From Symbiobacterium thermophilum IAM 14863 (GTDB taxonomy: Bacteria; Bacillota; Sulfobacillia; Symbiobacteriales; Symbiobacteriaceae): 64,000 bases of DNA. The DNA lies in NCBI RefSeq assembly GCF_000009905.1, contig NC_006177.1, positions 1,984,001 to 2,048,000 on the forward strand. Direction: 5' to 3'. Of this stretch, positions 22,092-48,075 are shown one piece after another. Numbering within the stretch: position 1 is the stretch's first letter; the number at the start of each line of letters is the position of its first letter. The notes below the pieces were generated by a model, which searched no databases, had not been told where the DNA came from, and worked only from the letters and a program-made list of their open reading frames with translations. A program made the position numbers and the translations under genes.

Positions 22092-23669
22092 GTGGGTACG
22101 TCTCACTTCCAAAAGTGTTCTGTATAAATCTGGTTCTTGAACGGACGCTGACTACCGTTCTCGTTTTTTACCTGGTCACCAGACCCGCAAACCCCCTGAA
22201 CGTCTTGGAGTATCCTCCGCTGTTGTTGCGACCGGCGTTCAGGATCGGCATGCGTGCATGCCGGGCAGCATCGACTCCCCGGCCTACGGTCTCACGAACC
22301 CGATGGCGGACTTTCTCCGCAGCCGCGTTCACAGATTCAAGCCCCAACGCACGCTCAACGTACTGTACGGCCCCCCGTAAAGCGCCGCGATAATATGCTG
22401 CCATCACCTGCAGCATTGCCATCAGGCCACTTTCCGACCAGCTCCGCCCCACCTTCCGCAGCCGTGCCGAATACCGCTCCACCGCCCCTTCCGCGGCGCC
22501 CACGCCGCGTAACCCCTCAACGTTGACGCCCCGCTCTTGCAGCCGAATACGGTAATCTCGAATTGACTCCGGCATCGTCCTGAGGTCGGCCAGCAGCCGG
22601 CGCATCTTCCCACGACGATCCGTGTCGGTCTCGGCTTTATGCGCTTCATCCAGCACCGCCAGCAACCGTCCAGCATCGTTTGCTTCAAGTGCAGCGTGTG
22701 CCTGCTCTAAGCGCTGGGGCCGGTGGCGCAGCACATGGTTTAACTCCCGCTTCAGGTGGAACCGATCGATCTGGTACAGCGCCTTGGGAAACCACGTCAC
22801 GCCCTCCCGGATCCACAACGCCCGGTCCCCGTTGATGATCACCCAGGTCTCGCTTAGGTCGTACTCGCTCTCCAGAAGCTCGCTCAACTGCTCCCAGCTA
22901 TCCCTGCCCGGTTCGGGCACGAAATCGCGCCGGTTCACCAGGCTGTACTCCTTACTACCTGGGCCTCGCTGGATCCAACCCTCATGAATCACAAACAGCC
23001 GGACTTCTGCCTTCTTGCCACGCTGACGAGCTGGCCAGAACCCGTCTGCCTCGATGAACAAGACCCGCACACGTCGGGTACCGGCCAACGTCATCTGCTG
23101 CTGTTTTTCCGCCGCTGCAAGCGCCCTTCCGGTCTGCAGGTTCCACTGCCGAATCGCTTCATGGCTGACAAACACCTGGCAATCCCGCCGCTCCAGCTCT
23201 GCCGCAGCACCCCGGTACGATCCAGCTGTCACAGACGCTTCAACCGCATCTGCCCTTACCGAGTCACTCACCCGCTGCCGTTTCGCTATTCCCAACACCT
23301 CATCCAGCAGGAACACGAAACGCTCTTCCTCGCGGTCCCAGTAGTAGCGGCGCTGGAACGTGATCGGCCCGAACTTGGTGACGACGCTTCGGGACCGCAT
23401 TTCCTTGTACACATACCGACTCGGGTCTCGGCTCTCGTACAGCGCCGTGTCAATCGCAGAGAGCGCCTCGACCAAAGCCTCGCGGAAGCAGTCGAGTGTC
23501 TGTTGCCAAGCCAAACGTTCAATCTCCTGAAAGGAGAAATCCACCGCAGCACGAATTTGCTCCATGACGAGAGATGACCCTCCTCGTGTTGGTATTGGCC
23601 AATCTCAACACTTTGGAAGGGCACATCTCTCGTCCTGCTATTTCAGGAGAAAAAATGTGTTGTACCCAC
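22092..23669. mobile_element. ISLre2-type insertion sequence
   Basis: About 1.58 kb. Begins GTGGGTAC (22092) and ends with its inverse GTACCCAC (23662-23669); beyond these eight bases the ends match only partly. It contains one full-length transposase gene. The flanks (CAAGCCAAA on the left, GAAAACTTT on the right) show no clear target duplication, so the ends could be off by a few bases or the duplication has decayed. It lies between aroQ and a rhomboid gene and breaks no visible gene. Confidence 0.75.
22168..23565 (-). CDS. ISLre2 family transposase (UPF0236)
   Basis: 465 residues, full length. Family features: VTKFGPITFQRRYYWDREEERFVFLLDEVLGI, RVLFIEADGFWPARQRGKKAEVRLFVIHEGW, WVIINGDRALWIREGVTWFPKALYQIDRFHLKREL, and the C-terminal SWSESGLMAMLQVM. 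The acidic residues in EADG and NGD and the Glu in WSESG are good DDE candidates. No frameshift, so probably active. Slightly lower GC than its neighbours. Confidence 0.9.
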   Translation of the reverse strand: MEQIRAAVDFSFQEIERLAWQQTLDCFREALVEALSAIDTALYESRDPSRYVYKEMRSRSVVTKFGPITFQRRYYWDREEERFVFLLDEVLGIAKRQRVSDSVRADAVEASVTAGSYRGAAAELERRDCQVFVSHEAIRQWNLQTGRALAAAEKQQQMTLAGTRRVRVLFIEADGFWPARQRGKKAEVRLFVIHEGWIQRGPGSKEYSLVNRRDFVPEPGRDSWEQLSELLESEYDLSETWVIINGDRALWIREGVTWFPKALYQIDRFHLKRELNHVLRHRPQRLEQAHAALEANDAGRLLAVLDEAHKAETDTDRRGKMRRLLADLRTMPESIRDYRIRLQERGVNVEGLRGVGAAEGAVERYSARLRKVGRSWSESGLMAMLQVMAAYYRGALRGAVQYVERALGLESVNAAAEKVRHRVRETVGRGVDAARHARMPILNAGRNNSGGYSKTFRGFAGLVTR

Positions 23670-25753: not shown

Positions 25754-26464
25754 TCACACCCCCAGTGCCCGCACCAGCGGAATCAGCACCGCGGCCGCCG
25801 CAAACGGGCAGGTGATGGTGTCCATGCCGTCCCGGGTGCAGAGTTCCACGGCAGCGGAAACGGCGGCCGTCACCGCGGCGATGGGCGCCGAAACCCGCCA
25901 GTTCCCGGCGCTGTGGACCAGGAGGACGGCCAGCACCGACAGGAACGACACCAGGAACATGGCCAGCGTCCCCTCGACGCTCTTGCGCCCCTCCACGAGT
26001 CTTCCCTCAATAAAATGCGACCCGAAACGCTTGCCCACCAGCGCGGCTGCGGCGTCGCCCAGGCCCCAGGCCATCACCGAGGCTGTCACGAGGTACCGCT
26101 CGCCGAGCCAGCCCCAGCCCACGGCGGCCAGGGTCGCGTACATGGCAAAGACAACGACCAGGCTGCGCTTGATCTCACCGGCCTTGCGCTCGGTGAGCAG
26201 CTGCGAGTAACCCGGCAACCGTTCCGCGGCCGCGAGCGCCGGGTAGACTGCCGCCACGAACAGGACCGCGGCGAGGGCCGAGGCCGTCCACGTCCCGAAG
26301 CCGTACAGGAAAACGAACAGGGAACCCAGGAGGATCAGATGCAGGGTCTTGCGGAACACCTCCGCCGGTACCCGGACGAACCGGCGCAGGGCCAGCGCCC
26401 CGATCACGCAGAGGCCGTAGTAGACCACGAGTTTGCCGAAGCCCGCAACAAGGTCAGTGAGCAT
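25754..26464 (-). CDS. Phosphatidate cytidylyltransferase/dolichol-kinase-like membrane protein
   Basis: 236 residues from the ATG preceded by GGAGG; the frame is open further upstream without support. About seven transmembrane helices. RRFVRVPAEVFRKTLHLILLG, GLGDAAAALVGKRFG and GRKSVEGTLAMFLVSF match the CTP-dependent kinase family (phytol, dolichol and diacylglycerol kinases). Likely phosphorylates an isoprenoid alcohol or lipid. Followed by the CDF-like gene. Confidence 0.8.
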   Translation of the reverse strand: MLTDLVAGFGKLVVYYGLCVIGALALRRFVRVPAEVFRKTLHLILLGSLFVFLYGFGTWTASALAAVLFVAAVYPALAAAERLPGYSQLLTERKAGEIKRSLVVVFAMYATLAAVGWGWLGERYLVTASVMAWGLGDAAAALVGKRFGSHFIEGRLVEGRKSVEGTLAMFLVSFLSVLAVLLVHSAGNWRVSAPIAAVTAAVSAAVELCTRDGMDTITCPFAAAAVLIPLVRALGV

Positions 26465-26897
26465 GTCGTATCCTCCGTTGGTCCCGCAGGGTATGTCCGG
26501 CTCCGGAGTAGAGACAGAGGCGACGCGCTTCACGGGTGGTTGGACACCCATCGCCGCGCGCCCCGGCGGTCAGGAAAGCTTCACGCCTGCTTTGTCGATA
26601 CAACTCATCATTTGAGGTTAAACCAACTTGCCGGGTTGCTGCAACACCCCACAAGGCGGCGATCCATGAAAAAAGCCCCCTTGCCCGGGGCGCTCAGCGG
26701 ATCCCAGGCGAAGGGGAGCGTCCGTGGACCATGTCGCCTGTCCCTGTCCTGTGTCTCACGGCCCGCGCCGCTGGGCAGCAGGCGATCGTCGCGCATGGGC
26801 GAATGAGTTTTCTGACCGGACGGGCGGGGGGGATGGTACTGCGCCCCCTCCCCGCCTGCCGGCGCGCTGACTCGACACCTGCGGGAGGGATGGCTGC
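26465..26897. other. 433-bp intergenic stretch
   Basis: Lies between the divergent genes at 26464 and 26898. Read leftward, TTGGTT and TTGTAT with 17 nt between them (about 26630-26600) might be a weak promoter for the kinase-like gene; TTGTCGA (26595 region) resembles part of a Spo0A box. A short terminator (see 26669-26691) faces left. No credible gene; the open frames here are not codon-biased like their neighbours. Confidence 0.4.
26669..26691 (-). terminator. Leftward terminator upstream of the kinase-like gene
   Basis: Read leftward, GCCCC-GGGCAAG-GGGGC followed by TTTTTT. There is no annotated leftward gene upstream, so it may stop antisense transcription from the DUF5694-like gene or be an attenuator. 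Confidence 0.45.
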
Positions 26898-27638
26898 TTG
26901 GTGCAGGAGCGTGCACAGGTCATGGTCCTGGGCACTTTCCACATGGAAAACCCGAACCTGGATTACGTCAAGACCGGCTACGGGGACGTGCTCAGCGAGC
27001 CGTACCAGCAGCAGATTCAGGAAGTGGTGGCCCGGCTGCTCCGCTACCGCCCGACGCACGTGGCGGTGGAAGCTCCACCTGACGCGGCGCCCGCGCTGCA
27101 GGAGCGCTACGACCAGTACCGTGCCGGGGGGTACACGCTGGGCCGGAACGAGATCGATCAGCTGGGCTTTCGCACGGCCGCGGCGATGGGCCATTCCCGC
27201 ATCTTCGGCATCGACTACCGGCTGGACTTGGATTTCAGCGCCGTCCTGGACGAGGCTGGGAAGCTGGGGTTGACGGGCTTCCTGAACGCGTTTGAGCGCA
27301 TGACCAGGAGCGTGGCAGAAGCGCAGGAGAGGGCCGAGGCCGACGGCGGCGTCCTGGGGCTGTTGCGCTACCTCAACTCCCCGGACCACGATGCCATGCA
27401 CGGGGTCTATCTGCAGATCGCCGCGGTGGGGGCGGGGGCTTCGTACGTCGGGGCCCGCCTGGTCGCCGACTGGTACCGACGGAACCTGTTCATGTTCAGC
27501 CACATCGCCGACCTGGCCCGGCAGCCCGAAGACGGGATCCTGGTGCTGGTCGGCGCCGGGCATCGCCCCCTGCTCAGGCAGTTCATCACGGAATCCCCCG
27601 ACCTCGAATACGTAGACCCCCTGCCCTATCTCACCTGA
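26898..27638 (+). CDS. DUF5694 (TraB-like) protein
   Basis: 246 residues. Start TTG or the adjacent GTG (26901), behind GGGAGGG. VMVLGTFHMENPNLDYVK near the N-terminus, RPTHVAVEAPPDAAPALQERYDQYRAG, NEIDQLGFRTAAAMGH, and the C-terminal GILVLVGAGHRPLLRQFI match the DUF5694/TraB-like fold related to erythromycin esterase-type hydrolases (GTFH and VGAGH motifs). No signal peptide; substrate unknown. Isolated gene between two non-coding regions. Confidence 0.75.
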   Translation: MVQERAQVMVLGTFHMENPNLDYVKTGYGDVLSEPYQQQIQEVVARLLRYRPTHVAVEAPPDAAPALQERYDQYRAGGYTLGRNEIDQLGFRTAAAMGHSRIFGIDYRLDLDFSAVLDEAGKLGLTGFLNAFERMTRSVAEAQERAEADGGVLGLLRYLNSPDHDAMHGVYLQIAAVGAGASYVGARLVADWYRRNLFMFSHIADLARQPEDGILVLVGAGHRPLLRQFITESPDLEYVDPLPYLT

Positions 27639-27679
27639 TGCCCTTCTCTCTGCAGGCCTGCCCTTCCCCCGGACCTGCG

Positions 27680-28205
27680 GGAGATCTTGACTTTGCTCGT
27701 GGGCCAGGTGAAAGTTCGTCGGAGTTCCCCGGCGGTCCGCCTGCGGATTCCCCCTGGCGGCTTCAACAGGTCACGTCGCGAGCCACACTTGCGACAGACG
27801 TGCACTTCGTCCGCGGGCCAAGTGAAAGTTCGTCGTACTTCCCCTGCGGCCCGCCCGCGGATTTCCCCCTCGCGGCTTCAACAAGTCCCGTGGCGAGCCA
27901 CACCTACGACCAACTTGCACTTCGCCCACAGGCCAAGTGAAAGTTCGTCGTACTTCCCCTGCGGCCCGCCCGCCGATCCCCCCTGGCGGCTTCAACACGT
28001 CACGTAGCGAGCCACACCTGCGACCAACTTACACTTCGCCCGTGGGCCAAGTGAAAGTTCGTCGTACTTCCCCGGCTGCCCGAATGGCATTCACCTCTTG
28101 ACGGGCTCGTCCTACTTCCATCGTTGGGGCTCCTGTGGGTTGACCTCTCGTGGCTTCAACGAGTCCAACGTTGGGTCACACCTACGACAGATCTACGCTT
28201 GCCCC
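27680..28205. repeat. 114-bp tandem array with palindromic core
   Basis: GTGAAAGTTCGTCG starts at 27708, 27822, 27937 and 28051, giving periods of 114, 115 and 114. A diverged fifth unit follows to about 28205, and a partial unit precedes the first. Each unit carries a 44-nt imperfect palindrome, for example CGACCAACTTACACTT (28021) facing AAGTGAAAGTTCGTCG (28049-28064) around CGCCC/GGGC, plus a conserved GGCTTCAACA segment and GCGAGCCACAC. Reading frames shift between units, so it is not a protein repeat. Lies between the DUF5694-like gene and kbl. Confidence 0.85.
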
Positions 28206-28276
28206 CCGGCCAACGAAAAGAGCCCGCGGCCAAACTTGGCATGGGCCAACGGGAAGGCAGGGGGCCCGGCAGACGC

Positions 28277-28324
28277 ACACGCGCAACCAGGGCGCTGCTG
28301 AGGCGGCGCCCTGGTTGCGCGTGT
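28277..28324 (-). terminator. 19-bp perfect hairpin after kbl
   Basis: ACACGCGCAACCAGGGCGC (28277-28295) and its exact inverse (28306-28324) flank a 10-nt loop. It lies 46 nt past the kbl stop and is the likely terminator of the tdh-kbl operon, although it lacks a T run; it may also be a dispersed repeat. Confidence 0.55.
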
Positions 28325-28370
28325 CCCGGGATCAGGCTAAGCGCCAGAAAACCACGACCAGCATCCCGGA

Positions 28371-29555
28371 CTAGATGAGCCCGAGCTCCCGGCCCACCTT
28401 CGCGAAGGCAGCCAGGGCCTCGTCCAGGTCCTCCTTCGTGTGAGCGGCGGTGACGATGGTCCGGACCCGGGCCTTGCCCCGCGGCACCGTCGGGAAGGCG
28501 ATGCCCTGGGCGAAAACGCCCTCCTCCAGCAGCCGGTCGGACAGCTGCATCGCCTTGACCTCGTCGCCCACGATCACCGGGGTGATCGGCGTCTCCGACT
28601 TCCCGGTGTCGAAGCCCAACTCGGTAAGCCGCTCCTTGAAGTAGCGGGTGTTCTCCCACAGCCGGTCGATCCGCTCCGGCTCCTGCTCCATGATCTCGAT
28701 GGCCTTCAGGCAGGCCGCCGCCACTCCCGGCGGATGGGACGTGGAGAAGAGGAACGGCCGGCCCTTGTGCCAGAGCAGTTCGATCAGGGCGCGCGGCCCG
28801 GCCACGTAGCCGCCCAGCACGCCCACGGCCTTCGACAGCGTGCCCACCTGCACCGTCACCCGGCCGTCCAGGCCGAAGTGGTTGACGGAGCCGCGGCCGT
28901 TCTTGCCCAGCACGCCGGAGGAGTGGGCGTCGTCCACGTAGGTCATGCAGCCGTGCTTCTCGGCCAGCTCCACGATGTCCGGCAGCGGGGCGATGTCGCC
29001 GTCCATGGAGAACACGCCGTCGGTGATGATCAGCCGGCGCCGGTACTGCCCGTCGGTCTCCTTCAGCACGCGGGCCAGGTCGTCCATGTCGGCGTGCTTG
29101 TAGCGGTGGATCTTCGCCTTGGACAGCCTGCACCCGTCGATGATGGACGCGTGGTTCAGCTCGTCGGAGATCACGGCGTCGCCCTCGCCCACCAGAACCG
29201 GGATCACGCCGGAGTTGCAGGTGAACCCCGACTGGAAGACCACGGCGGCCTCCACGTGCTTGAACTCGGCCAGCTTCTGCTCGAGCTGGTTGTGGATCGT
29301 CATGGTGCCGATGATGGTCCGGACCGCGCCGGACCCGGCGCCGTACGCCTCAGTGGCCTCGATCATCGCCTGCTTCAGGCGGGGGTCGTCGGCCAGGCCG
29401 AGGTAGTTGTTGCTGGAGAGGTTGATGACCTCCCGCCCGTCGATGATGGACCGGGGGCGCTGGGGCGACTGCAGCTCCTTCAGGGGCCGGTAGAGCCCGG
29501 CCTGCTTCAGGCCGTTGAGCTCTTCCACGAGAAAGTCCGTCAGAGCCATCCGCAT
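28371..29555 (-). CDS. kbl: 2-amino-3-ketobutyrate CoA ligase (glycine C-acetyltransferase)
   Basis: 394 residues, PLP enzyme of the alpha-oxoamine synthase family. [30 protein letters not shown], the PLP Asp in [12 protein letters not shown], and the Schiff-base Lys in [17 protein letters not shown]. Splits 2-amino-3-oxobutyrate, the product of Tdh, into glycine and acetyl-CoA. Downstream of tdh in one operon: threonine catabolism. BioF is a close relative, but the tdh partner decides. Confidence 0.94.
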
Positions 29556-29574
29556 TGACCTCCTCTGCGGGAAA

Positions 29575-30630
29575 TCACGCCTTCAGGTCAGGCACCAGCA
29601 CTATCTTGCCGCTCTGGCCGGAACCCATGAGCTCCATGGCGGCGTCGATCTGCTCCAGCGGCATCCGGTGCGTCACCAGCGGCCGCAGCCGCTCCGCCAG
29701 CCCGGCCCGGTAGAGGGAACGCACCTGATACCAGGTCTGCCACATCCGGCGGCCGGTGATGCCCTGCAGCACCAGGCCCCGCATGATCACGTCCGCTGCC
29801 AGGTCCAGCTCCAGCGGCCGGCCGGGCAGACCGAGGAGCGAGATGCGGGCGCCGTTGCGGGCGGCCTTCAGCCCCTGCCGGATGGCGGTGGGGTTACCCG
29901 ACATCTCCAGCACCACGTCGGCGCCGTAGCCGCGGGTGTAGCTGCGCACCACCTCGACCGGATCCTGCTTCGTGGGGTTGATGAGCACGTCGGCCCCCAG
30001 CTGGCCCGCCAGCTGCAGCCGGTATTCGTTGATGTCCATCGCCATCACGATCTCCGCGCCGGCCATCTTGGCCACGGGGACCGACATGATGCCGATGGGG
30101 CCGCAGCCGGTGATCAGCACGGACCGGGCGGTGAGGTCGCCGTTCAGGGCCGTGTGGACCGCGTTGCCCAGCGGCTCCTGAATCGACTGCAGCTCAAAGG
30201 GGATGTCCTTGTCGTTCACCCAGATGTTCTGCTCCGGCACCGCGACGTACTCGGCGAAGGCGCCGTCCGTGTCCACCCCCAGGATCTTCGTGTTCTCGCA
30301 GAGGTGGTACTCCCCCATGTGGCAGCGGGGACAGCGGTTGCAAACAATGTGCGTTTCGGCAGAGACGTAGTCGCCCACCTTGCATGCGGTGACCTCGCGG
30401 CCGACGGCCACCACCTCACCGGCCAGCTCGTGCCCAATGGTGAGCGGCGGCTTCACCCGGCCCGCGGACCACGGATCCCAGGTGTAGATGTGGTAGTCCG
30501 TGCCGCAGATCGAGGCCGCCCGGACCTTCACCAGGACGTCGCGGGGGCCGATGGTCGGGATCGGAACCTCCTGCAGTGTCGCGCCAGGACCAGCTTCCAG
30601 TTTTCGCAAAGCACGCATCGTTTCTGCCAC
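29575..30630 (-). CDS. tdh: L-threonine 3-dehydrogenase
   Basis: 351 residues from GTG at 30630 (AAGGTGG 6 nt upstream); the ATG four codons later is the start by family alignment but lacks a site. Catalytic zinc ligands in [10 protein letters not shown] and GHELAGEV, structural-zinc cysteines in [15 protein letters not shown], Rossmann motif GCGPIGIM, and the NAD-selecting [16 protein letters not shown]. Oxidises L-threonine to 2-amino-3-oxobutyrate, handed to Kbl. Confidence 0.94.
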
Positions 30631-41227: not shown

Positions 41228-41458
41228 TCAGCGCCCGCCTGTCAGGGCCGCCGGTCGGTCGCCAGCGACCGCGTCCGCCGGCGAGGCTGCGATCGGCCGC
41301 CTGGCCACGGCGCCCGCCGGCGAGGTCGCGATCGGCCGCCTGGCCACGGCGCCCGCCGGCGAGGTCGCGATCGGCCGCCTGGCCACGGCGCCCGCCGGCG
41401 AGGTCGCGATCGGTCGCCTGGCCACTGCGCCTGCCGGCCCGGGCGGACGTTCAGTCAT
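41228..41458 (-). CDS. Possible 76-residue repeat peptide coupled to the SEC-C gene
   Basis: ATG overlaps the stop of the SEC-C gene (ATGACTGA). The translation is four imperfect copies of PAGAVARRPIATS. The underlying 39-bp DNA repeat is open in several frames, so coding cannot be shown; only the coupled start favours it. No recognised domain. Confidence 0.25.
   Translation of the reverse strand: MTERPPGPAGAVARRPIATSPAGAVARRPIATSPAGAVARRPIATSPAGAVARRPIAASPADAVAGDRPAALTGGR
41272..41443. repeat. 39-bp tandem repeat, about four copies
   Basis: Units beginning CGCCCGCCGGCGAGG start at about 41272, 41311, 41350 and 41389, with a partial fifth. The unit contains GCGATCGGCCGCCTGGCCACGG; the second and third copies are identical, indicating recent expansion. 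The remaining part of this intergenic stretch (41060-41270) holds the LCP promoter region and GC-rich sequence without a gene. Confidence 0.85.
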
Positions 41459-45360: not shown

Positions 45361-46020
45361 CCGTCACGCGCAAAACCTGAACCGCCTCCCCGAGTCCGGG
45401 TGCAGATTCTGCGCGTGCCTCCCCTTCTGCCCCGGCGCTCCCGCGCAAAACCTGAACCGCCCACCCGAGCCCGGGTGCAGATTTTGCGCGTGCCTCCCCT
45501 TCTGCCCCGGCGCTCCCGCGCAAAACCTGAACCGCCTCCCCGAGCCCGGGTGCAAATTTTGCGCGTGTCCCCCCTTCTGCCCCGGCGCTCCCGCGCAAAA
45601 CCTGAACCGCCTCCCCGAGCCCGGGTGCAGATTTTGCGCGTGTCCCCCCCTCTGCCCCGGCGCTCCCGCGCAAAACCTGAACCGCCTCCCCGAGCCCGGG
45701 TGCAGATTTTGCGCGTGTCCCCCCTCTGCCCCGGCGCTCCCGCGCAAAACCTGAACCGCCCACCCGAACCCGGGTGCAGATTCTGCGCGTGTCCCCCCCT
45801 CTGCCCCGGCGCTCCCGCGCAAAACCTGAACCGCCTCCCCGAGCCCGGGTGCAAATTTTGCGCGTGTCCCCCCCTCTGCCCCGGCGCTCCCGCGCAAAAC
45901 CTGAACCGCCCACCCGAGCCCGGGTGCAGATTCTGCGCGTGTCCCCCTTCTGCCCCGGTGCTCCCGCGCAAAACCTGAACCGCCTCCCCGAGCCCGGGTG
46001 CAGATTCTGCGCGCCGACCC
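45361..46020. repeat. 75-bp tandem array, nine copies
   Basis: GCGCAAAACCTGAACC starts at 45368, 45443, 45518, 45593, 45668, 45742, 45817, 45892 and 45966, a period of 74-75 bp. Each unit contains a palindrome: GCGCAAAA at one end and TTTTGCGC (or TTCTGCGC) about 40 nt later, with inner CTG/CAG and ACC/GGT pairs, then CCCCTCTGCCCCGGCGCTCC. Because 75 is divisible by three, long open frames run through both strands; these are artefacts of the repeat. It fills the gap between the DUF6504-like gene and dnaE2 in the mutasome cluster. The remaining flank (46021-46200) has no gene. Confidence 0.9.
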
Positions 46021-46455: not shown

Positions 46456-48075
46456 TCACGCCTTTCGGGACCAGCGGTAGGGGTCGGCGTACTGGAGCAT
46501 CTGCTCACGCCAGGAGGTCGGGGTATGCATCCCCAGGCCGATCACCCGCGCCGGGAAGCGCTGGTGCAGCAGGGACAGCGCCCCCTCGATCCGCTCCCGC
46601 CGCTCCCGGAGCAGCCGGTCGTCCCACAGCTCCATCTGCCGCCAGTCGACGGGGCCGATCAGCCCCACCTCGGCGGTGACCGCCGCCACCTCCACCGACT
46701 CCCTGAGGCCGTCCAGCAACTGGGTGAGCAGGGCGTGCAGCCCCTGCTGGATCGGGTAGGCGGTGTGCCGCAGCCGGGGCAAAGTCCGCTCGGCGTGCAG
46801 CACCCGGCCGTCGGCCAGCTCCAGGATCAGCCCAACCTGTTGGCAGCCCTCGCCCCGCCGGTCCAGCTGGGCGGCCAGCAGGGCGGCCGAGCGGCTCAGT
46901 TCCCGCTCCAGCGGATCCCGGTCCCGCACGCCGCCCAGCTCCGACCGCCGCGCCAGCCGTCGGGGCGGCCAGGCGGGCTTCACCGGCTCCGGATCGATGC
47001 CCCGGCTCCAACGGGAGATCTGCCGCCCCTGCAGCCCCAGTTGCCGCGCCCATTCGTCCTCGCTCACCCGCGCCGCCTCGCCGATGCGTGTGATCCCCAA
47101 CTGCTGCAGCCGGCGCTGCACCTCGGGCGGAAGCGGCAGGAAGGTGACGGGCAGCGGGGCGAGAAAGCGGGCCTCGGCGCCGGGGGAAACGATGGCGATC
47201 CGCACGGCCGGGCCTTCCAGCCGGCGCACGCCAGCGCGCCGGCCGGCATCCTCCCGGCCGCCTTCCGGCCGTCCGATGGCAAGTCCGCCCGCGTGCCGGC
47301 TGCCTATCCCCCCGCCGCCCGCCTGACGGGGGGCGATCACCTGCGCGCCCTCCAGCCGCTGCGGGGCCGTGCCGGGCCGCCACTCCAGGAACTCCGCCCG
47401 CAGGGCCCGTGCCGCCGCACGGGCGACCACGCGGGAGGAACCGGCGCCTGCGAAGGCGGCGAAGCCAAAGGACGCGGCCGCCTCCGCCAGCGCCTTCAAC
47501 TCCGCCTGCAGCCGCCGGTCCGCCGCCTGCCTCCGGCCGCCTTCCGCGCCCTGCGCCCGGCCGCCCGGAGCCCATCCACCCGGAGCCCATCCACCCGGAG
47601 CCCATCCGCCCGGAGCCCATCCGCCCGGAGCCCGGCCGCCCGGAGCCCGACCGCCCGGAGCCCATCCGCCCGGAGCCCATCCGCCTGGAGCCCATCCGCC
47701 TGGAGCCCATCCACCCGGAGCCCATCCGCCCGGCAGGCCGTCCGGATCGTCGGGCAGGGGCAGCCCCAAAAGCGCCTGGTGCGGCTCCACCGGCTCGACG
47801 TAGGGCGTGTGGGCGAGGCAGCGGTCCCAGAAGGCACGGGCCCGGGCGGTGGCGTCCACATCCGCCCACTCCACCACGGTTGCCCCCGGGACGTCGCACA
47901 GCACCTGGCGGGCGGGGCTGCCCAGCCGCAGCCCCGCCGCAAAAGCCTCGCGGCAGCCGTCGAAGACCCGCCCCCCGCGCAGGACCACGACCGGACGTTC
48001 GGCCTCTGCCAGCCCCGCCTCCCGGGCGGCCGCGGCGTAGAGGCCCTGAATCTCCACCCAGCAGATCCATCGCAT
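46456..48075 (-). CDS. imuB: ImuB-like Y-family polymerase homologue, catalytically degenerate
   Basis: 539 residues; ATG behind GGAGGG. Y-family layout: palm start ICWVEIQGLYAAAAREAGL (catalytic Asp replaced by Glu), and YVEPVEPHQALLGLP where active enzymes have SIDE, so the second acidic pair is lost. Then 12 copies of APGGW/APGGR (residues 115-174), the thumb with VQRRLQQLGITRIGEAARV and QGRQISRWSRGIDPEPVKP, and a little-finger-like C-terminus. ImuB acts as a clamp-linked bridge between ImuC and the fork. A LexA box lies upstream. No ImuA/RecA-like gene is seen here. Confidence 0.85.
   Translation of the reverse strand: MRWICWVEIQGLYAAAAREAGLAEAERPVVVLRGGRVFDGCREAFAAGLRLGSPARQVLCDVPGATVVEWADVDATARARAFWDRCLAHTPYVEPVEPHQALLGLPLPDDPDGLPGGWAPGGWAPGGWAPGGWAPGGWAPGGRAPGGRAPGGWAPGGWAPGGWAPGGWAPGGRAQGAEGGRRQAADRRLQAELKALAEAAASFGFAAFAGAGSSRVVARAAARALRAEFLEWRPGTAPQRLEGAQVIAPRQAGGGGIGSRHAGGLAIGRPEGGREDAGRRAGVRRLEGPAVRIAIVSPGAEARFLAPLPVTFLPLPPEVQRRLQQLGITRIGEAARVSEDEWARQLGLQGRQISRWSRGIDPEPVKPAWPPRRLARRSELGGVRDRDPLERELSRSAALLAAQLDRRGEGCQQVGLILELADGRVLHAERTLPRLRHTAYPIQQGLHALLTQLLDGLRESVEVAAVTAEVGLIGPVDWRQMELWDDRLLRERRERIEGALSLLHQRFPARVIGLGMHTPTSWREQMLQYADPYRWSRKA
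47554..47733 (-). repeat. 15-bp x12 repeat encoding APGGW
   Basis: Twelve copies of a 15-bp unit (CGGAGCCCATCCACC and variants on the + strand) encode APGGW with three APGGR. It sits in frame inside the ImuB-like gene, right after the strand that would carry the catalytic acid pair. Copy-number changes would keep the frame. Confidence 0.95.

Follow-up and report, generated by a model that had tools for sequence, protein, structure and literature searches.

The window considered here is the whole 64,000-nt stretch that was analysed, part of the 3,566,135-base genome of Symbiobacterium thermophilum IAM 14863 (hereafter G000). Between two convergent genes, one encoding a DUF5694 protein and the other a 394-aa ORF that we take, from its sequence, to be kbl, the window carries an intergenic tandem array of palindromic cores (Table 1). 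The original prediction described a 114-bp array with 44-nt palindromic cores at this place, made up of at least four units and a diverged fifth. The array is real: TRF reports a tandem repeat at 27686-28082 (period 114, 3.5 copies, score 575), a covariance model of the core (R1) places successive cores 114, 115 and 114 bp apart, and TRF arrays with a period of at least 60 appeared in none of 100 two-base-block shuffles of the region. The unit count was right too, with four full cores followed by a diverged left half-core. The core length needs correcting to 48 nt, and strong palindromes are confined to three cores: the match to the complement over the 22 outer positions of cores 2 to 4 is reached by at most 4.5e-4 of all window 48-mers, whereas that of core 1 is unexceptional, being equalled by 3.8% of them. 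The probe proposed for finding further copies, AAGTGAAAGTTCGTCG, occurs three times in the window, every time inside this array.

Table 1. Features of the kbl-side locus and of related loci (window coordinates unless a contig is given).
Feature	Coordinates	Strand	Remarks
Flanking gene, DUF5694 (PF18950)	26898..27638	+	Pfam E 2.3e-44
Orphan family-A array	27676..28213	+	intergenic, between two convergent genes
Core 1	27676..27723	+	most diverged full core; R1 47.5 bits; palindromicity 11/22
Core 2	27790..27837	+	R1 64.2 bits; palindromicity 15/22
Core 3	27905..27952	+	R1 67 bits on +, 50.3 bits on -; palindromicity 19/22
Core 4	28019..28066	+	R1 64.5 bits; palindromicity 18/22
Diverged left half-core closing the array	28183..28213	+	read from the sequence; starts 164 bp past core 4; end set by eye
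Flanking gene kbl (presumed)	28371..29555	-	394-aa ORF
75-bp array, orphan of clade C6a nuclease	45367..46013	+	blastn to C6a nuclease-linked array E 8.8e-70, 65% identity
Nuclease A gene	G000:C1:3136477-3137502		1.12 Mb from kbl array; sister family-A array upstream

Two ORFs of 100 and 106 aa cross the array and show no sign of being genes. The array has no blastn match in phage or plasmid collections, and viral contigs contain no exact match to the core pattern of its family. An Rfam search of 26000-30000 at E values up to 10 returned two sub-threshold matches, of which the one over the array, mir-8791, is taken as chance (19.9 bits vs a gathering score of 85). A hairpin with 22-nt arms (95% complementary) and a 4-nt loop lies between the array and kbl at 28277-28324 and is perhaps a terminator. 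Elsewhere in the window we note a UPF0236 protein, presumably of a transposase-like family, at 22168-23565 on the minus strand (PF06782, E 4.5e-167), and two short-period tandem arrays, of 39 bp (41271-41438) and 15 bp (47561-47733), which are possibly coding repeats.

A dispersed family of palindromic cores

The original prediction also supposed a repeat family with conserved palindromes, and here it was borne out. Model R1 finds 28 cores of this family, which we call family A, in five G000 arrays at about 1.060, 1.556, 2.012 (the window array), 2.602 and 3.135 Mb, along with a single core at genome position 1588843 and a divergent five-core array with a period of 204 bp at 971607-972472. All five arrays are intergenic, lie on the plus strand by model score and have no neighbour in common among the ORFs picked. 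A same-genus metagenome-assembled genome (MAG), G065, carries family-A cores on 21 contigs, one of which (C16) was left out of the fetched set, while R1 returns none in the third genus member, G042, or in 98 other genomes of the class. The family is thereby found in two of 101 genomes of the class (E 0.1, stricter filters) and two of eight of the order.

Spacing is regular, 39 of 41 core-to-core intervals in 14 arrays measuring 114-117 bp and the other two 150 bp (the 164-bp interval in the window and the 204-bp intervals of locus L078 lie outside these 41). Units inside an array are 88-89% identical (54 pairs) and cores of different arrays 71%, so that arrays appear to evolve in concert, with the core as the better conserved part. 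Spacers are 89% identical inside arrays (the same 54 pairs) and 53% identical between them, which rules out a CRISPR array. Helical phasing, 115 bp being about 11 turns, was considered and set aside because other families have other periods.

Is the palindrome itself maintained? With each array represented by a single core (24 of 26 loci; L070 and L075, with 49-nt cores, were dropped from this alignment, A3), 84% of pair cells pair, compared with at most 42% when slid, and double-sided changes occupy 15 cells vs 9.2 +/- 2.3 in shuffles, with 8 of 500 shuffles reaching 15. In G000 alone, covariation does not exceed that in shuffles. What we find is therefore not a repeat unique to one locus and devoid of shared structure, the outcome that the original prediction named as telling against it: the family occupies many loci, and pairing over the arrays of two species lends modest support to a conserved palindrome, a pattern that would look the same for DNA and for RNA recognition. 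Aligned cores share a half-site of approximately TGCGRCnGATTTYCACTT on either side of a weakly conserved centre, and their ACTT..AAGT boxes are invariant in G000.

Nuclease genes beside the arrays

Downstream of one family-A array of G000 (locus L015), and of the corresponding array in G065 (L059), is a gene encoding a protein of about 340 aa with two winged-helix (wHTH) regions and a nuclease-like C-terminus, nuclease A; a homologue with 37% identity is encoded downstream of the divergent 204-bp array. A profile of these proteins (A4) identifies seven homologous loci in G000, seven in G065 and six in G042 (seven rows, two of which are one gene), plus 21 match rows outside the genus, in G082, G090 and G074. 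A direct-repeat array (at least 50 bp, period at least 40) is present within 1 kb upstream of 16 of the 20 nuclease homologues of the three same-genus genomes, as against 8 of 241 ordinary ORFs of at least 150 aa in a 400-kb G000 sample (Fisher 2e-16), where 20 of 400 1-kb tiles contain one. These 20 copies include orthologues and are not independent; G000 by itself gives 5/7 vs the same 8/241 (Fisher 3e-6). The 16 positives include two with short-unit repeats that have no recognised palindrome (L153 and L159), without which 14/20 retain an upstream array (Fisher 2e-13), and one gene with an internal stop (L165); upstream sequence was limited to 942, 395 and 796 bp for L161, L163 and L164. At L015 a DDE transposase gene intervenes and the array lies 1.3 kb upstream, making it a 17th copy with an array, while L154, L158 and L169 have none within 1 kb upstream. 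TRF gives much the same picture. Downstream of the same genes an array is seen in 5 of 19 cases. We regard the association between arrays and nuclease genes as well supported.

Of 13 upstream arrays, eight (L059, L156, L157, L160, L162, L163, L165 and L167) have a best inverted repeat that exceeds every one of 20 shuffles; L078, L155, L166, L168 and L153 fall short of this. Among loci of other genera, 3 of the 17 examined (from the 21 rows found; two have only about 100 bp of upstream sequence) have an upstream array. Homologues in other Bacillota MAGs (L210, L230 and L231) have 168-265-bp arrays lying 252-1603 bp upstream, so that the link may reach past the genus.

Comparison of matching loci shows that array and gene are gained or lost together. 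In G042, the flanks of the array plus nuclease A module align end to end without a gap, 1.9 kb (L059:2953-4847) being missing; the limits of this segment are alignment boundaries and not proven insertion points. In G082 the module is likewise missing, with about 0.8 kb of other sequence in its place. Two of the five G000 arrays keep their place in G065 (L015 = L059, L016 = L060), so that any movement is slow. The kbl array is missing beside kbl in both G065 and G042, the L014 array at its matching place in G065 and the L016 array in G042; the flanks of L013 have no match in G065. No target duplications or insertion intermediates were seen. Downstream of kbl in G065, where G000 carries its family-A array, there are degenerate short CTCACCGCTCACAGCC-like tandem repeats (L118:2150-2330). 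At L015:343-845, on the far side of the gene preceding the family-A array, lies a 59-bp-period array (8.5 copies) that matches none of the other arrays.

The original prediction had named TnpA-REP (RAYT) as the enzyme to look for, and on this point it was mistaken. The Y1 transposase domain (PF01797) has no match in G000, in a search that was positive in 5 of 14 control genomes, and the partner is the unrelated two-wHTH nuclease. Dispersed intergenic palindromes, and units that can also be read as elements of about 107 bp with terminal inverted repeats of about 20 bp, might still suggest a REP/RAYT or MITE family mobilised by an ordinary transposase, in which case the link to nucleases would simply follow from the genomes being rich in arrays. 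The background counts speak against this: in the random 400-kb G000 sample there are just five arrays, three of which are orphans of nuclease families, so that the odds of chance linkage are small. With the Y1 transposase absent and the core unlike REP, we reject REP/RAYT membership and hold this whole explanation to be very improbable. REPs are described as 20-40-nt palindromes in high copy (PMC3733652), with over 100 per genome (PMC2817692); here the core has 48 nt, and the G000 total is limited to the cores listed above, tens where REPs number hundreds. Of the REP end tags GTAG and CGTC, the latter lies close to, but not at, the 3' end in most G000 cores; most G065 cores have CGCC or another variant in its place.

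A second alternative is that the arrays act as RNA, tandem hairpins being transcribed and restraining the downstream nuclease in the manner of a type III toxin-antitoxin system. Such a system would indeed place tandem hairpins just ahead of a nuclease gene, as seen here, and yet most observations point the other way. In the L015 and L078 proteins, the two scanned, Pfam finds HTH families only and no toxin of the ToxN/CptN/TenpN type; over the arrays of 12 loci Rfam gives no gathering-level match; the arrays of clade C2 seem, by eye, to be opposite in orientation to their gene (L078, L164); orphan arrays are distant from any nuclease found; and units of 75-250 bp exceed type III repeats in size. 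We consider this explanation most improbable. The three gathering-level Rfam matches in these 12 loci, all outside arrays, are riboswitches: SAM in L058, and a molybdenum/tungsten cofactor (Moco) riboswitch next to the nuclease-A locus in both genomes (L015:9-144 and L059:1581-1710, both on the minus strand).

Nuclease fold and the matching of cores to clades

What kind of enzyme is this? We modelled a homologue from G065 (L207; pLDDT 93.3, pTM 0.85, and pLDDT 93.2 for the nuclease domain alone). The second wHTH of the model resembles plasmid initiators, presumably of the RepA_N/RepE families (4pql, 4pt7 and 5kbj; Z 10.7, 10.4 and 9.3 over 84 residues, rmsd 2.1-2.2), and domains 1-2 together align with RepE54 (Z 8.3, 143 residues, rmsd 4.2), so that the second wHTH is predicted to have the plasmid-initiator wHTH fold. 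The nuclease domain is closest to I-Bth0305I, at the top of the list (Z 7.9, 93 residues, rmsd 2.9), followed by Vsr (Z 7.6, 105 residues, rmsd 3.5) and, lower down, TnsA of Tn7 (Z 6.4, 108 residues, rmsd 3.8), values just below 8, the level where the tool warns of common arrangements. A Foldseek search of the PDB with the whole model brings up nothing below 0.001, and with the nuclease domain nothing below 0.5. We nevertheless keep the assignment to the Vsr/EDxHD branch of PD-(D/E)XK, because the top enzymes belong to one superfamily and PHROGs agrees, with matches to homing endonuclease families (E 1e-10); judged by modelled fold and conserved catalytic residues, the domain would belong there. 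The residues D, E, QH and D..K are present in 19 of the 20 genus copies, L169 having HH for QH. The first nuclease helix has E in clade C6 and in almost every member outside the genus, and Q in clades A (that of nuclease A) and C2-C5. Viral relatives occur at 44 loci and match the C-terminal half of the query only.

If these proteins recognise the cores, related nucleases might be expected to accompany related arrays, and where arrays can be compared they do mostly group by nuclease clade. We compared 26 arrays by blastn (18 nuclease-linked or family-A and 8 others), using clades from a tree of 28 of the 37 proteins, nine partial or broken ones, including the genus copy L169, being left out. 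Every match below 1e-9 joins arrays of a single family: A; C5 (L155, L162 and orphans L190 and L202); C6a (L156 and, as orphans, L191 and the 75-bp array of the window); and C6b (L157, L163). The nuclease-linked pairs L015-L059, L155-L162 and L157-L163 each come from one nuclease clade, and the four orphan arrays outside family A group with C5 or C6a. Arrays of the related nucleases L153-L160 and L166-L167 have no blastn match to each other. The L156 array matches that of L163 weakly. Between families there are five low-scoring matches (E 1.7e-5 to 0.008), to be compared with 1-6 per run at 0.01 for shuffled arrays. Proteins of the nuclease-A clade come from G000 and G065 only, and the same two genomes alone have family-A cores.

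This grouping also accounts for the likeness that the original prediction saw between the kbl array and the 75-bp array of the window: each turns out to be an orphan of its own family, the two families being of one kind of system. Matches to the 75-bp family turn up at ten genomic positions (E 1e-6 or better), including one upstream of its C6a nuclease gene at G000:2928459. Related nucleases of three species share a syntenic locus (L156, L163, L167) and yet have differing cores there, from which we infer that cores change fast. In clade C6 the wHTH part is 36-61% alike and the nuclease part 62-77%; in clade C2 the figures are about 80% and 71-76%, a pattern that would follow from site choice residing in the wHTH part. 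Accessory genes also show matches across clades, many of which reflect that one syntenic locus. A 126-bp array at L188:3100-3864 (6.1 copies), from the random G000 sample, shows an inverted repeat by eye, matches none of the nuclease-linked arrays and is possibly a further family.

Initiator-like wHTH domains raise the question of whether the arrays are iteron-like origins: degenerate integrated replicons, initiator-nuclease fusions, or relics or decoys of an anti-plasmid nuclease. The likeness of the second wHTH to plasmid initiators and the alignment with RepE54 are what one would expect in that case. Replicon genes are absent among the array neighbours looked at, however, the window array is unmatched in phage and plasmid collections, and the units are far longer than iterons. 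The arrays and nuclease genes of G000 are all on its single contig. A precedent for the anti-plasmid variant is Odn of phage ICP1, described as an origin-directed nuclease with a RepA-like, replication-initiator-like DNA-binding domain that cuts only with semi-palindromic tandem iterons (PMC8263062). Our proteins likewise join a nuclease to an initiator-like domain, but Odn is phage-borne, has a nuclease compared with GIY-YIG enzymes and cuts a parasite's origin (PMC8263062), whereas here sites and gene are chromosomal and together. An initiator-derived function is a rival that carries weight, even if the specific proposal of iteron-like origins strikes us as scarcely probable. For S. thermophilum, the literature describes a protein of another family, in which a wHTH module is joined to a GIY-YIG nuclease (PMC1564403), and a member of COG5482 (PMC1189080).

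How the arrays may spread, and what they may be

The other rival with weight is pure regulation. The two-wHTH proteins could be autoregulators or chromosome organisers and the arrays clusters of operators, spread by slippage and recombination without any nuclease action. Much would fit: an operator-like position, the array ending 86-403 bp before the start codon used in 13 of the 16 positives (L153, 424; L164, 598; L159, 628); the wHTH and initiator folds; the invariant boxes; and a fairly even spacing of the five family-A arrays, which lie 0.46-0.59 Mb apart save for a single gap of 1.49 Mb (P 0.0025, the statistic having been chosen once the data were known). Against this, the nuclease motif is conserved in all clades, and an operator-binding protein would have no need of it. 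Moreover, the orphan family-A arrays share no neighbour among the genes looked at. On balance, we find it unlikely that regulation is the whole story.

In our view the kbl array is probably an orphan set of predicted binding sites for nuclease A, left by a REPtron-like, nuclease-driven spread. Acting as a dimer, nuclease A would place two wHTH domains on each palindrome half of about 22 bp, and its nuclease domains would face the weakly conserved centre of the core. The enzyme would probably also control its own expression by binding ahead of its gene. Repair called in by nicks or cuts at the cores would add, remove and homogenise units and might occasionally seed a new array elsewhere, in the way that REP sequences may spread with RAYTs, here with an unrelated enzyme.

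REPtrons offer the nearest analogy: an enzyme gene stands beside its own palindromic repeats, which are also scattered and clustered, and one genome may hold several families with repeat-specific enzymes (PMC2817692, PMC3733652). In our case, too, an enzyme gene lies directly beside candidate cognate repeats, with orphan copies elsewhere, the repeats being taken as cognate from the way the sequences group. There are also differences. The enzyme is a two-wHTH Vsr/EDxHD-like nuclease instead of a Y1 transposase, and its cores form fixed-period tandem arrays upstream instead of single REPs flanking the gene. EDxHD homing endonucleases such as I-Bth0305I, and Vsr, provide the best solved matches to the nuclease domain, but the gene here is free-standing, has an initiator-like wHTH pair and comes with tandem arrays, and it was not seen in an intron, intein or target gene. 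Joint absence of the 1.9-kb array and gene from G042 would suit a homing pattern, yet R1 gives no core in that genome at all. TnsA of Tn7 shares the lower-ranked fold match and has a different domain order.

More tentatively, these systems may form a new class: free-standing nucleases that combine an initiator-like wHTH pair with a Vsr/EDxHD domain, present in a single genus as several parallel families, every family having a palindromic core of its own, and building, homogenising and scattering arrays of their own sites. We found nothing on these arrays or on the array-nuclease link in open-licence papers, searched by titles and abstract openings, and the enzyme-and-array families of the genus look like an undescribed repeat-spreading or self-controlling system. 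For two non-coding arrays of the window, anonymous until now, the analysis provides a defined family each and a partner protein open to test. The spread of palindromic repeats is best known from REP and RAYT; if the proposed working is true, the combination of an enzyme with scattered palindromes would seem to have evolved more than once, and the genus would offer naturally diverged pairs of protein and site from which to learn how wHTH nucleases choose long palindromic targets.
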